Positions 20,756 to 24,468 of a stretch of 64,000 nucleotides of DNA are shown here, one piece after another (position 1 is the stretch's first letter; every line of letters begins with the position of its first letter). The notes under the pieces are model-generated. The model worked only from the letters and a program-made list of their open reading frames with translations, did not search any database and was not told the origin of the DNA. The DNA is taken from positions 1 to 64,000 of the forward strand of contig JAHEAQ010000018.1 of NCBI GenBank assembly GCA_024642705.1. Direction: 5' to 3'. The position numbers were made by a program, and so were the translations under genes. This stretch comes from Bacteroidota bacterium. GTDB lineage: Bacteria > Bacteroidota > Bacteroidia > Chitinophagales > Saprospiraceae.

Positions 20756-20775
20756 ACACAAATTATTTTTGTGTT
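20755..20775. terminator. Short hairpin across convergent gene ends
   Basis: AACACAAA (20755-20762) pairs with TTTGTGTT (20768-20775) over a 5-nt loop, overlapping the stop codons of both convergent genes. It is short and without a strong T-run, so it is at best a weak bidirectional terminator. Confidence 0.45.
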
Positions 20776-22307
20776 GCATTTAATGCAGACCAATGATCCA
20801 GGTAATATTTCATAATTATTGGTTGGTCTAACCTTGAAGCTTCCACATTGGTCCGCTTGACATCTGGCGGAAAATAGAAAATATGTTCAAAACTTTCTTG
20901 CTCTAAATATTTAAGGTTAAGTGTTTCATTAAACTTAAAATCTAACTTTGTATTACTTGCAATATTAAATCCCCAATTTCCGAATGAAGGGACATTTATT
21001 TGATAAGGATAGGTAAATAAAAAACCGCTTTCTTTCAGTCCCTTATCTATACACCAAAAAGCGTTTGGACTTAATTCTGGACTAGTAGCTTGTGTTACAA
21101 ACAACCCATTTTCACTTAATCTATTTTTGATCAAATTGTAAAAGGTAATACTGTATAGCCTGCTTAAACTTTCATTGTTTGGATCAGGCAAATCAGCAAT
21201 GATAAGATCTAGTTGAATCTTATTTTTTATTAGCCATGCGAAAGCATCCTGGTGAATAATATGAACACGAGGATCAGAAAAAGCATCTTCATTTAGTTCC
21301 CTAATCAAAGCAATTTCTTTTGAAATTTTAACAATTTCTGGATCTAATTCTATTAAGTAAATACTATCTACTTCCTTATATTTCAATATTTCGCGTAGTG
21401 CCAATCCTTCTCCTCCACCTAAAATAGCTACTTTAGACAAACCACTAATTTGCATAGCAGGAACATGAACCAATGCCTCATGATACCTATATTCATCTCT
21501 AGAAGAAAATTGGATTGCTGAATTTAAATACATTCTAAATTCTTCTCCATTATTTGTAAGTACAATATTTTGATATGCAGAAGAATCATTAAATATAACT
21601 GGGTGTTTGAAAATTGAATTGTTCCAATATTTGATAAAATCGTTAGCTCTAACCCCTGCTAATATAATTAATGCTGAAATTGAAATTGTAATCAGCCATA
21701 AAATCAAGTCTCTTTTTCCAATTTTCTCAAAGGTGTTTTTAAAAACAATAAAATTTGAAAATCCAATGACAATATTAATGAACCCAAATAACAAAGATGA
21801 TTTATACAAGCCCATAAATGGAATCAAAATAAAAGGAAATATTATTGTGGCAATGAGTGCTCCTATATAATCTAATGTCAATACATCTGAAAGACCATCA
21901 TCATGAATTACTTTGCCTTGCAAAATTCTCGTTAAAAGTGGTACTTCCAAGCCAGTAAGTGTCCCAATAATTATGATTATTCCTAGGATAAAAATATTGA
22001 ATCCTTCTACATCTGCAAATGAAAAATATAAATAACACAGCGGTACTGAAAAAGCTCCAATCAATCCCAATAATATCTCAATCCAAATGAATGAAAATAA
22101 AATATCCTTCTTAAAAAATCGAGATAACCAAGAACCCAATCCCATTGAGGCAAGATAAAAACCTATAATAATTGAAAACTGCTTAACGCTATCGCCAAGA
22201 AAATAAGAAGAAATTGTGCTGATCAATAATTCATAAATTATAGAACACATTCCTACAATTAATGTAGAAAATAAAATAAAGCGTTTATTAAATGAGTTCT
22301 TGTTCAA
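20763..22307 (-). CDS. Membrane-anchored spermidine-synthase-like aminopropyltransferase
   Basis: This 514-residue protein has an N-terminal membrane part of about seven helices (10-220) and a C-terminal class I methyltransferase-fold domain of the spermidine/spermine synthase family. Motifs: DEYRYHEALVH (271-281, compare DEFIYHE of SpeE), VAILGGGEGLALRE (293-306, nucleotide loop), YLIELDPEIV (317-326) and ADLPDPNN (371-378, with the position of the catalytic Asp). The fused membrane and aminopropyltransferase architecture is widespread and poorly characterised. It is transcribed divergently from a small operon with S-adenosylmethionine decarboxylase, whose product is the aminopropyl donor, over only 55 bp. 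Synthesis of a polyamine near the membrane is a well-supported inference; the acceptor amine is not known. Confidence 0.85.
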   Translation of the reverse strand: MNKNSFNKRFILFSTLIVGMCSIIYELLISTISSYFLGDSVKQFSIIIGFYLASMGLGSWLSRFFKKDILFSFIWIEILLGLIGAFSVPLCYLYFSFADVEGFNIFILGIIIIIGTLTGLEVPLLTRILQGKVIHDDGLSDVLTLDYIGALIATIIFPFILIPFMGLYKSSLLFGFINIVIGFSNFIVFKNTFEKIGKRDLILWLITISISALIILAGVRANDFIKYWNNSIFKHPVIFNDSSAYQNIVLTNNGEEFRMYLNSAIQFSSRDEYRYHEALVHVPAMQISGLSKVAILGGGEGLALREILKYKEVDSIYLIELDPEIVKISKEIALIRELNEDAFSDPRVHIIHQDAFAWLIKNKIQLDLIIADLPDPNNESLSRLYSITFYNLIKNRLSENGLFVTQATSPELSPNAFWCIDKGLKESGFLFTYPYQINVPSFGNWGFNIASNTKLDFKFNETLNLKYLEQESFEHIFYFPPDVKRTNVEASRLDQPIIMKYYLDHWSALNATQK

Positions 22308-22362
22308 ATTTTGATTTATCTTTAAACTACAAATGTATTATTAAAATTAAAAGAATATTTCA

Positions 22363-22962
22363 ATGGCTGAAAATTACAATCATAAAGAGGAAAGTTTTTT
22401 TACAAAATATAAATGGTACCTGATTGGACTTGCTGTGTTTCTAATTTACATGATGATTACCAATTCTGAAAATACTCCTGTTAATTCTGAAACAACAGAA
22501 GTGGAACAAACAGAAGAAATTATACCTACAGAAGGTGTGATTACAAAAGTCGCAGAGGTTGAGCCTGAAGTTTTCAAAATTACCAACGAAGAAGTAGTTC
22601 CCACAGTGGATGATTCCAGAGTAATTGCTACTTATTTGGATGGGAAAAGTGATACTTTCACTCTGACTGAAATTGCGGTTATCGATACTACTATAACAAG
22701 TGAGGATAATAATTATAGAAGAAGAAGTGGAATAAGTACCATTGTTCATTATGGACTTATAGGATATATGTTAGGAAGACCTATGGGATACCCAATTTCC
22801 AGAAGTGCTTATTCGAGCAATGATTCTTACAATAGATCTAATAGTGGAAGAACCCAAGTTTCGAGCTCTGCAACGCGTAGAACTGTTTCTACTCCTAAAC
22901 CAACTTCTACAGGCAAAACAGGTTTTGGTTCGGGAAAGTCAACAAAATCATATGGTGGATAG
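22363..22962 (+). CDS. Membrane protein with a Ser/Thr/Gly-rich tail ending in Gly-Gly; possible YgiB/DUF1190 analogue
   Basis: This 199-residue protein has a cytoplasmic start, one helix (17-33), an acidic Glu/Thr-rich stalk (35-85), a short domain (86-115), a basic RRR patch and second hydrophobic segment (120-140), and a low-complexity Ser/Thr/Arg tail ending TGFGSGKSTKSYGG. The codons for the final Gly-Gly overlap the start of the ligase gene by 11 bp. Enterobacterial YgiB and YjfM (DUF1190) occupy the same position beside the YgiC/YjfC ligases and also have Gly/Ser-rich tails, so this may be the functional counterpart. I infer, without proof, that its C-terminal glycine is the substrate of the downstream ligase. 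Sequence similarity to DUF1190 beyond the tail is not obvious. Confidence 0.7.
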   Translation: MAENYNHKEESFFTKYKWYLIGLAVFLIYMMITNSENTPVNSETTEVEQTEEIIPTEGVITKVAEVEPEVFKITNEEVVPTVDDSRVIATYLDGKSDTFTLTEIAVIDTTITSEDNNYRRRSGISTIVHYGLIGYMLGRPMGYPISRSAYSSNDSYNRSNSGRTQVSSSATRRTVSTPKPTSTGKTGFGSGKSTKSYGG

Positions 22963-24118
22963 GGTCATTAAACTTAAACAAATTCCAAAAAAAAATATAA
23001 CTAGAGGAGGTTTTGAATGGTACTTGGAACAAGAATATATTGTTCCTGAAGCTATAATTTTGGAACCTGAGGAAATTGATAATTTTGTTTCTATTGCCGA
23101 TGAAGCTTATGAATTATATTCTGAAGTTACCAATCGAATTATCAATGAAGCAGAATGGGATCATTTTGAATTTCCAGTTGCCATGCGCGAAATGATCCAG
23201 CATAGTTGGGACAGAAAAGATGTTCATCTGATTGCAAGATTTGATCTTTCTGGAGGAATTGAAGGACTACCAGTTAAAGTTTTTGAGTTGAATGCCGATA
23301 CGCCAACAATGTTACCAGAAACTGTAGTATTTCAAAATCTTTTCAAAAATGAAAATAGAAATCCATCCCACAACCATTATAATGATGTAAGAATCGATCT
23401 GGTCGAAACGTTTTTACGACTGCTAAAAGATTTCCCTCAAAGGACCAATACTTTACTTGTTACTTCTCTTGGTCATGAAGAAGATGTGCTTAATGCTCAA
23501 GTTATCGTTGAAATTGCCAAAGAAGCGGGATTTAATGCAGTGTATGCAGATCTTGAAGATGTAGTTTTTGAAGACGATGGTGTATATTTGGATTTTGATG
23601 ACAATTCAGATCAAAAATTTGATTATTTGTATAAAATAGTACCTTGGGAATTCATCATGTATGAAGAACCAGAGTTGTTAGAGATCCTAAGAGACTTACA
23701 ATTTCGTGATAAAGTTTATATCATGAATCCAGCATACACAGCAATTATGCAGTCCAAAGCCATTCTCCCATATTTGTATGCTAACTTTAAGGATGACTTT
23801 ATTTTAAAAAGTACCTTTAGTAAAAACGATTTTGAAGGTGAATCATATGTGAAAAAAGTAATTTTCGGAAGATTAGGAGAAAACATAAAGATTGTGGATA
23901 AATATGGTTCAAAAATAGCCCAAACTGATGGTGATTATGGTGAATTCAAAAATATTTATCAAGCCTTTTCACCACTTTATCAAGATACCGAAGGTAATTA
24001 TTACCAACCTGGAATTTATATCGTTGATGGCAAATCTGCTGGCATTTCTTTCCGAAGATGTGAAAATATTATAGTTGATGAAGATTCAGAATTTATTCCA
24101 CATTTTATAGCTGAATAA
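22952..24118 (+). CDS. Glutathionylspermidine-synthase-like ATP-grasp ligase (YgiC/YjfC type)
   Basis: The start ATG at 22952 (MVDRVIKLKQIP) gives 388 residues; a longer frame from 22805 would run 158 bp into the preceding gene and is rejected. The protein matches the C-terminal synthetase domain of glutathionylspermidine synthase: RFDLSGGIEGLPVKVFELN (96-114) and ADTPTMLPE (115-123), then VPWEFIM, ILPYLYANF, FILKSTFSKNDFEGESYVKK (ATP-grasp lysine/glycine loop) and PGIYIVDGKSAGISFRRC near the C-terminus. The family forms an amide between a C-terminal glycine carboxylate and a polyamine using ATP. The amidase domain of the E. coli Gsp enzyme is absent, as in YgiC. It overlaps the genes on both sides (11 bp before, 1 bp after). 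Confidence 0.9.
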   Translation: MVDRVIKLKQIPKKNITRGGFEWYLEQEYIVPEAIILEPEEIDNFVSIADEAYELYSEVTNRIINEAEWDHFEFPVAMREMIQHSWDRKDVHLIARFDLSGGIEGLPVKVFELNADTPTMLPETVVFQNLFKNENRNPSHNHYNDVRIDLVETFLRLLKDFPQRTNTLLVTSLGHEEDVLNAQVIVEIAKEAGFNAVYADLEDVVFEDDGVYLDFDDNSDQKFDYLYKIVPWEFIMYEEPELLEILRDLQFRDKVYIMNPAYTAIMQSKAILPYLYANFKDDFILKSTFSKNDFEGESYVKKVIFGRLGENIKIVDKYGSKIAQTDGDYGEFKNIYQAFSPLYQDTEGNYYQPGIYIVDGKSAGISFRRCENIIVDEDSEFIPHFIAE

Positions 24119-24468
24119 TGAAGTTCCTAGGAAAACAGTACATTATTGAAATGAAAGAATGCAATGTGAAATTGCTAAATGATCCAGAATTTATTGGCAA
24201 AATAATGTATGAATCGGCTTTAAAAGCTAATGCTACAGTTGTTCAACAGTTTTTTCACCAGTTTTCACCTTTCGGCGTAAGTGGAACAATTGTAATCGCC
24301 GAATCACATATAAATATCCATACTTGGCCTGAGCACAAATACGCTGCTATTGATATTTTTACCTGTAGCGATTCACTCAATGCGGAAAATGCAATAAATC
24401 ATTTGCAGAAATCATTGGAAGCGAAACAGTGCAATACCAGTATGATCCACAGAGGTGAAGTGCTTTAA
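24118..24468 (+). CDS. speD: S-adenosylmethionine decarboxylase (bacterial SpeD/SpeH type)
   Basis: This 116-residue pyruvoyl enzyme decarboxylates S-adenosylmethionine to supply the aminopropyl donor for polyamines. The proenzyme cleavage site is Glu62-Ser63 in IAESHINIHTW; Ser63 becomes the pyruvoyl group, His68 assists processing and Cys83 in FTCSD is the catalytic acid. The length is that of the compact class 1B enzymes. The start codon overlaps the stop codon of the ligase gene (TAATG), so the three plus-strand genes are translationally linked. Together with the divergent aminopropyltransferase it forms a self-contained polyamine module. Confidence 0.95.
   Translation: MKFLGKQYIIEMKECNVKLLNDPEFIGKIMYESALKANATVVQQFFHQFSPFGVSGTIVIAESHINIHTWPEHKYAAIDIFTCSDSLNAENAINHLQKSLEAKQCNTSMIHRGEVL

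Follow-up and report, generated by a model that had tools for sequence, protein, structure and literature searches.

The locus considered here occupies positions 20763 to 24468 of a 64,000-nucleotide stretch of DNA from a Bacteroidota bacterium (Saprospiraceae, contig JAHEAQ010000018.1), referred to as the window, and raises the question of why a ligase of the glutathionylspermidine-synthase family is encoded directly behind an envelope protein that ends in Gly-Gly and in the company of genes for polyamine synthesis. Our analysis indicates that the ligase is probably a dedicated modifier of this tailed envelope protein, which would receive a polyamine as a tag-directed C-terminal amide and present it at the envelope. 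This reading is based on the observed pairing and co-occurrence of the two genes, a C-terminal tag with its spacing and tiny last residue, and the intact residues of the ligase, together with the analogy to the reported peptide-spermidine ligases of Escherichia coli. From these data we infer that the tail is the natural substrate, as well as the amine used, the timing relative to export, the purpose, the adduct and the physiology. The features of the locus are as follows.

20763..22307, minus strand: TM-SpeE, an N-terminal membrane region with a spermidine-synthase-like domain (open reading frame [ORF] of 514 codons, listed start TTG)
22308..22362, no strand: divergent intergenic region of 55 bp, from the gene coordinates
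22363..22962, plus strand: tailed envelope protein, predicted substrate, with an N-terminal hydrophobic anchor (family A1)
22921..22959, plus strand: C-terminal tag GFG-SGKSTKSYGG, with the GFG starting 13 residues before the end
22954..22959, plus strand: terminal Gly-Gly codons, predicted modified C-terminus, overlapping the ligase start
22952..24118, plus strand: YjfC/YgiC-type ATP-grasp ligase of 388 amino acids, without amidase domain (GSP_synth, YjfC fold)
24118..24468, plus strand: SpeD, S-adenosylmethionine (AdoMet) decarboxylase (TIGR03330)

The three plus-strand genes, encoding the tailed protein, the ligase and SpeD, overlap successively. The tailed protein has the C-terminus GFGSGKSTKSYGG, and its last two codons, GGT GGA (22954-22959), share nucleotides with the ATG GTG GAT of the ligase (ATG at 22952). 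Among the 52 picked ORFs of at least 90 amino acids in the window, the tailed protein itself is the only one with a Gly-Gly end. All four genes are clustered in two Portibacter genomes (L031 and L032; labels of this kind denote loci), a genus placed in the Saprospirales by the NCBI taxonomy. An initial annotation of the window had described this layout, namely a TM-SpeE gene divergent over 55 bp from the genes for the tailed protein, the ligase and the AdoMet decarboxylase, and an overlap between the ligase start and the codons of the final Gly-Gly; the coordinates and family scores agree with it, and the overlap is seen in the sequence.

The window ligase matched GSP_synth (PF03738) with 286.2 bits (cut-off 29.3) over residues 14-386 and hence over the whole protein. 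This was the sole domain above cut-off in the 388 residues, an N-terminal amidase domain not being detected, and the score against PRK10507 (Gss) was 112.6 bits, compared to a cut-off of 882. An AlphaFold model, built from alignment A5 (30 rows, comprising the window protein, 27 relatives from viral contigs and two from Portibacter), had a mean predicted local distance difference test (pLDDT) score of 90.2. The best solved fold was that of E. coli YjfC (7uk6; Z 47.9, root-mean-square deviation 2.2, 371 aligned residues), followed by Gss (2ioa, Z 45.1), YgiC (7uk8, Z 41.8) and trypanothione synthetase (Z about 35), and the earlier assignment as a glutathionylspermidine-synthase-like ATP-grasp ligase thus holds. 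All 30 rows of A5 and all 13 of alignment A2 carry R96, D98, E112, N114, K269, K302 and R368, seven residues that, by analogy with Gss, would bind ATP, magnesium and the acid substrate; T117 and T119 are likewise listed as invariant. As judged by sequence and modelled fold, the ligase is of the YjfC/YgiC type with its invariant residues intact, and peptide-spermidine ligation is its predicted activity.

The RefSeq product name of E. coli YgiC and YjfC is peptide--spermidine ligase. In the portions of the literature consulted, one paper terms both proteins peptidylpolyamine synthetases, citing Pederick 2023, and a 2025 paper describes YgiC as being without Gss activity, citing Sui 2012. The statement in the initial annotation that ligases of this type have no demonstrated substrate is therefore dated, since peptide-spermidine ligase activity is reported for YgiC and YjfC; a named natural substrate of either enzyme was not found in the literature searched.

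The survey of related ligases drew on two genome groups, an order as delimited by the analysis tool itself and the phylum, which provided loci from 46 of 298 and 32 of 395 genomes, respectively. Further loci came from a genome collection (2), E. coli K-12 (2 ligases), the plasmid collection (19 of 158 matching records, chosen for spread), phage records (3 of 130 matching) and viral-contig relatives (80 of 100, viral by collection label). After ligases identical over a 200-residue stretch had been collapsed, 166 distinct ligases were obtained: 74 from Bacteroidota, 21 from plasmids or E. coli and 71 from phages or viral contigs. A linked partner was defined as a tailed protein encoded on the same strand within 1.6 kb of the ligase. 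Such partners were present for 149 of the 166 ligases (64 in Bacteroidota, 19 in plasmids or E. coli, 66 in phages or viral contigs), and the plasmid records included Actinomycetota, Deinococcota and Cyanobacteriota (one each) and Bacillota (two). Detection of 133 partners relied on a G[FYW]G motif anywhere within the final 45 residues and an end rich in Ser, Gly, Arg, Lys, Thr or Ala, the terminal residue being no criterion, whereas the remaining 16 were picked by eye among relaxed matches.

The two genes also co-occur at the level of genomes. The window partner family, A1 (19 rows), matched 36 of the 298 order genomes, all of which are among the 46 ligase genomes; these profile searches scored at most 11 first-look candidates per genome, and absence in them is not absolute. 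Nine of the ten ligase genomes without A1 have a partner of a second, A3-like type; in the tenth (G534), the ligase has in-frame stops and no tailed partner was found. In the phylum group, A3 matched 10 of 395 genomes: all six strong matches have the ligase, and in the four weak matches (E 4e-6 to 1e-3) both the ligase and the tail are missing. The A1 tails from 35 genomes (G475 excluded) end in Gly-Gly in 31 cases and in Gly-Ser or Ser-Gly in four. The pair is kept in three genomes in which the partner is distant from the ligase, with ends of Gly-Gly (G442), Ser-Gly (G249) and Ser-Ser (G591), and G526 carries two Gly-Gly partners on a separate contig, its ligase starting 67 bp from the end of its own contig. 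These observations support the view that tail and ligase form a conserved pair. As for individual loci, the broken ligase of G534 (L094/L146) has relatives of TM-SpeE and SpeD on its flanks, possibly reflecting joint decay or a sequence error; the ligase of G395 (L053) has one in-frame TAG and adjoins an intact tailed partner ending in Gly-Gly; and the two partners of G526 (L141, contig 11) lie in tandem, each ending in SSGG.

The partners share a C-terminal signature. The final G[FYW]G mostly starts 11-15 residues before the end (mode 13), and a start 10-17 residues from the end was found in 117 of the 149 partners but in only 1 of 1,000 distinct other ORFs of at least 100 amino acids from the same loci, which served as background. 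A Gly-Gly end was present in 81 partners and 4 background ORFs. The last residue is Gly in 84 partners, Ser in 47, Ala in 13, Glu in 4 and Leu in 1, so that 144 of 149 end in Gly, Ser or Ala; for the 133 partners found through the motif, the corresponding numbers are 78, 40, 10, 4 and 1. In a motif-free check, a gene ended within 60 bp of the ligase start at 115 of 166 loci (none at 44, locus edge at 7), and 92 of these 115 genes end in Gly, Ser or Ala, 49 of them in Gly-Gly. On a FastTree phylogeny of the ligases, a Gly versus another end required 26 changes, as compared to a mean of 48.8 and a minimum of 41 in 500 shuffles, indicating that the terminal residue goes with ligase relatedness, although it has changed on repeated occasions, for the most part from one tiny residue to another. 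The rule is a tiny C-terminal residue rather than Gly-Gly, and the tag, as read from these sequences, typically comprises an arginine or lysine, a GFG-type motif some 13 residues before the C-terminus and a tail rich in Ser, Gly and Arg. Taken together, pairing, co-occurrence and conservation of the tag lend support to the C-terminal tag model. The four Glu-ending partners (L174, L188, L208, L222) are from viral contigs and end, after the usual tail, in GGE (three) or VGE (one); the GGE ends are reminiscent of Pup, which ends in Gly-Gly-Glu.

Outside the tail, the window partner offers few clues. Its match to DUF1190 (PF06693) has an E-value of 0.09 and 13.5 bits, below the cut-off of 22, and covers only residues 125-196; 9 of the 19 A1 members match DUF1190 at E-values up to 1, the best being 3e-5. 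A PDB sequence search returned one chance-level match (E 0.95), the protein was unmatched in the plasmid collection, and its model is poor (mean pLDDT 42.5), the usable parts being helices 17-33, at the N-terminus, and 124-136. A hydrophobic anchor is present at the N-terminus, and no lipobox was seen. A relation of the A1 ectodomains to those of A3, DUF1190 or the phage partners was not detected (HHalign probability 1-4%). The comparison with DUF1190 proposed in the initial annotation was positive only in part: the Pfam cut-off was not reached and the HHalign profile comparisons were weak, whereas the GFG-type tail with a tiny end is like that of YgiB and YjfM.

In the mechanism that we propose, the ligase would recognise the tag by its arginine or lysine and by the GFG-type motif that follows, some 13 residues ahead of the C-terminus. 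It would then catalyse phosphorylation of the C-terminal carboxylate of the tail by ATP, and a primary amine of the polyamine would attack the activated carboxylate and leave a positively charged tip joined by an amide bond. In the window's order, SpeD and the membrane SpeE may supply or extend the amine via aminopropyl transfer. The membrane- or lipid-anchored product would display a covalent polyamine on the envelope, which may alter surface charge, as the initial annotation suggested, and would most likely serve to stabilise the membrane or to cope with stress.

Several observations weigh against this model. The strict terminal-Gly rule, for which the initial annotation had suggested conservation with the ligase as a check, is rejected, because 65 of 149 partners, including the four Glu and the one Leu, end in another residue beside a kept ligase, an observation that the annotation itself had named as refuting its reading; what stands of the claimed pairing are the linkage (149/166), the co-occurrence (36/36), the tiny end and the near-fixed motif spacing. 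Gly-Gly is present in only 22 of the 56 partners located 0-60 bp upstream of the ligase. Since the loci are related, the counts cannot be treated as phylogenetically independent. A comparison by HHalign of the final 60 residues between A1 and the other partner types gave probabilities of only 0.4-14% (13.9% with the DUF1190 tails), and with tail profiles this weak the common tag rests on motif, spacing and end, features that may have arisen by descent or by convergence. Glu380 of the window ligase aligns with Arg in E. coli YgiC and YjfC, and its amine may thus differ. There is also a question of topology: a lipobox pattern is present in 87 of 133 full partners and a second strongly hydrophobic segment in only 11 of 113, so the tail probably ends outside, and the ligase, as it needs ATP, presumably resides in the cytosol. 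Modification would then precede or accompany export; a second membrane helix that brings the tail back to the cytosol is not generally supported (11/113).

Finally, 17 of the 166 ligases are without a linked partner. Five of these are plain misses (L019, L075, L099, L111, L231), three of them low-scoring GSP_synth members (35.6 to 75.6 bits). The others comprise ligases with a distant partner (L012, L103, L106), loci truncated where the contig or the locus stops (L098, L102, L107, L177, L191, L201), L074, in which an annotated DUF1190 gene runs past the locus edge, L203, in which a rich neighbour was left uncounted, and L146, the broken ligase of G534. L074, from a Roseomonas plasmid, contains a tandem pair of GSP_synth ligases followed by DUF350 and DUF1190 genes, and in L078, from a Bacillus subtilis plasmid, the ligase and a small tailed protein ending in GFGG adjoin NADAR and macro-domain genes. 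A distant GSP_synth clade of about 46-71 bits (L021, L022, L024, L028, L029, L110) is accompanied by a protein of 459-482 amino acids with a GFG or SFG motif farther from its end, which is Gly-Gly, Ser-Ser or Ser-Leu; in L021, L024, L028 and L029, a membrane-like protein of roughly 285-305 amino acids is encoded on the other side of the ligase.

An unlikely alternative is that the tail is the ligated substrate and the amine an amino acid, an amino sugar or another small amine. The difference at the position of Glu380 would be consistent with this idea, as would the finding that SpeD or SpeE relatives were not detected in 11 kb around each of L150, L156 and L157. It is opposed by the E. coli relatives reported, in the sources as far as consulted, to be spermidine ligases, and by the SpeD, TM-SpeE or homospermidine synthase genes that adjoin the ligase in the window's order and in one phage. 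In the window, TM-SpeE scored 565.9 bits against PRK03612 (cut-off 472), as expected for a membrane-fused polyamine aminopropyltransferase, the product being predicted, and its Spermine_synth domain (136 bits) spans residues 273-455; with 139.1 bits it is the strongest of three Spermine_synth matches in its genome, ahead of two at 31.2 and 25.5 bits. SpeD, with 131 bits for AdoMet_dc and 138.5 bits (cut-off 75.65) for TIGR03330, the B. subtilis type, is the sole match in its own genome, in which nspC had no match above cut-off and a SpeA-like protein of 467 amino acids scored below its cut-off. Among the 46 ligase genomes of the order, at least 28 have flanking TM-SpeE and at least 24 flanking SpeD relatives, these being minimum values because the fetched flanks differ in length. 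Membrane SpeE fusions reportedly do not make spermidine. Polyamine modules of this type might aminopropylate other substrates, according to the part of PMC11237479 consulted. The placing of polyamine enzymes beside the ligase in the initial annotation is supported, genes of this kind adjoining it in much of the order and, with the homospermidine synthase, in one phage; the neighbouring SpeE is a putative source of the conjugated polyamine.

It is similarly improbable that the tail is only a docking handle, by which the ligase is recruited to make a small peptide-polyamine that the envelope protein uses or carries. A docking motif would equally account for ligase-tag co-occurrence and near-constant spacing, and a published proposal for Achromobacter phage Motura, as far as the source was consulted, assumes glutathione as the substrate. 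Docking leaves unexplained why Gly, Ser or Ala is the very last residue in 144 of 149 partners, and why phages that lack the ligase keep the end of the tag. YgiB was matched by tblastn in 130 phage records, and the five inspected, picked for variety (L265-L269; Erwinia, Klebsiella, Xanthomonas and Citrobacter phages), all encode a homologue with a Gly-Gly end and an RGGFG or RSGFG motif. The same five records had no GSP_synth match in a search in which two ligase-bearing phages did match. We infer that their hosts supply the ligase, which E. coli has. In Motura itself, genes for the ligase and a DUF350 protein cluster with one annotated as homospermidine synthase and one for a lipoprotein-like protein that ends in SAGG (DUF1190 20.9 bits, slightly short of the cut-off, 22). 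The published study noted the synthase and the ligase and, in the part consulted, proposed glutathionylhomospermidine as the product; we suggest that the small gene between them may encode the substrate.

Somewhat less probable still is that the Gly/Ser/Arg tail acts alone in the envelope, the ligase being encoded by a polyamine stress gene under shared regulation and acting on a different substrate. Such tails are of low complexity and positively charged (net charge above zero in 145 of 149), and both genes occur in PspA-type stress operons. This explanation is difficult to reconcile with the detection of A1 in 36 of 298 genomes, always together with the ligase, and with the pair being kept in G442, G249 and G591 despite distant genes. 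That the terminal Gly-Gly is a nucleotide-level artefact of ribosome binding or start-codon overlap for the downstream ligase is scarcely credible: the codons do overlap in the window, and Gly-Gly is commoner in overlapping partners (27 of 33) than in those 0-60 bp upstream (22 of 56), so that overlap may add to the effect, but the same end persists in 11 of 20 downstream partners, in 21 of 40 that lie over 60 bp upstream and in all five inspected phages without ligase, which rules out a Shine-Dalgarno sequence or overlap as the whole cause.

Returning to C-terminal modification of the tailed protein, we advance, more tentatively than for the window itself, a general form of the model. YgiC/YjfC-type ligases may write a widespread C-terminal polyamine capping, directed by a portable tag (Arg or Lys, a GFG-type motif, some ten residues that are small or basic, and a final Gly, Ser or Ala) on unrelated ectodomains, and phages may bring tagged lipoproteins, some together with a ligase and a polyamine synthase, others using the host ligase. 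The enzyme family is already known, whereas the tag and its breadth as a prediction were not found in the literature searched, and no description of the tail as ligase substrate was found in the open-access literature searched. The tag points to a natural substrate in the same operon as the YgiC/YjfC-type ligase, and the recurrence of the pairing in several bacterial phyla and in phages suggests a widespread surface-protein modification. If true, bacterial envelopes would carry a protein-level polyamine modification that phages share and that, in E. coli, is tied to PspA-type stress genes through a common operon.

The window ligase shares the ATP-grasp synthetase fold with Gss (E. coli b2988), which joins spermidine to a C-terminal Gly, and with trypanothione synthetase; it differs from Gss in having no amidase domain and, in the alignment, DTPT in place of DSAS. 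In the stretch containing part of gss, taken as a neighbour control, pitB was the only gene seen, on the one side covered. The closest counterparts are the E. coli pairs YgiB-YgiC and YjfM-YjfC, in which, as the initial annotation had noted, a tailed protein is paired with a YgiC-type ligase: the DUF1190 proteins, encoded immediately ahead of the ligase, end in RGGFG...SMGG or RGGYG...HWGG, and the ligases have the fold of the window enzyme. The window differs from these pairs in that the partner is below the DUF1190 cut-off, no similarity of its family's ectodomain to DUF1190 was detected and no lipobox was seen, and in that the operon adds SpeD and TM-SpeE. In the parts consulted, PMC11237479 describes stress operons with PspA, DUF350, DUF1190 and an ATP-grasp ligase, and related envelope-stress operons with a membrane SpeE and an AdoMet decarboxylase, as in the window; it treats DUF1190 as a metal-chelating lipoprotein, and those parts do not mention the C-terminal tail. 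The conjugation of spermidine to SUMO and ubiquitin (PMC12270671, in the part consulted) likewise places a polyamine on the C-terminal Gly-Gly of a protein, with a mass gain of about 127.15 Da reported for SUMO, although this system is eukaryotic and employs E1 and E2 enzymes instead of an ATP-grasp ligase.

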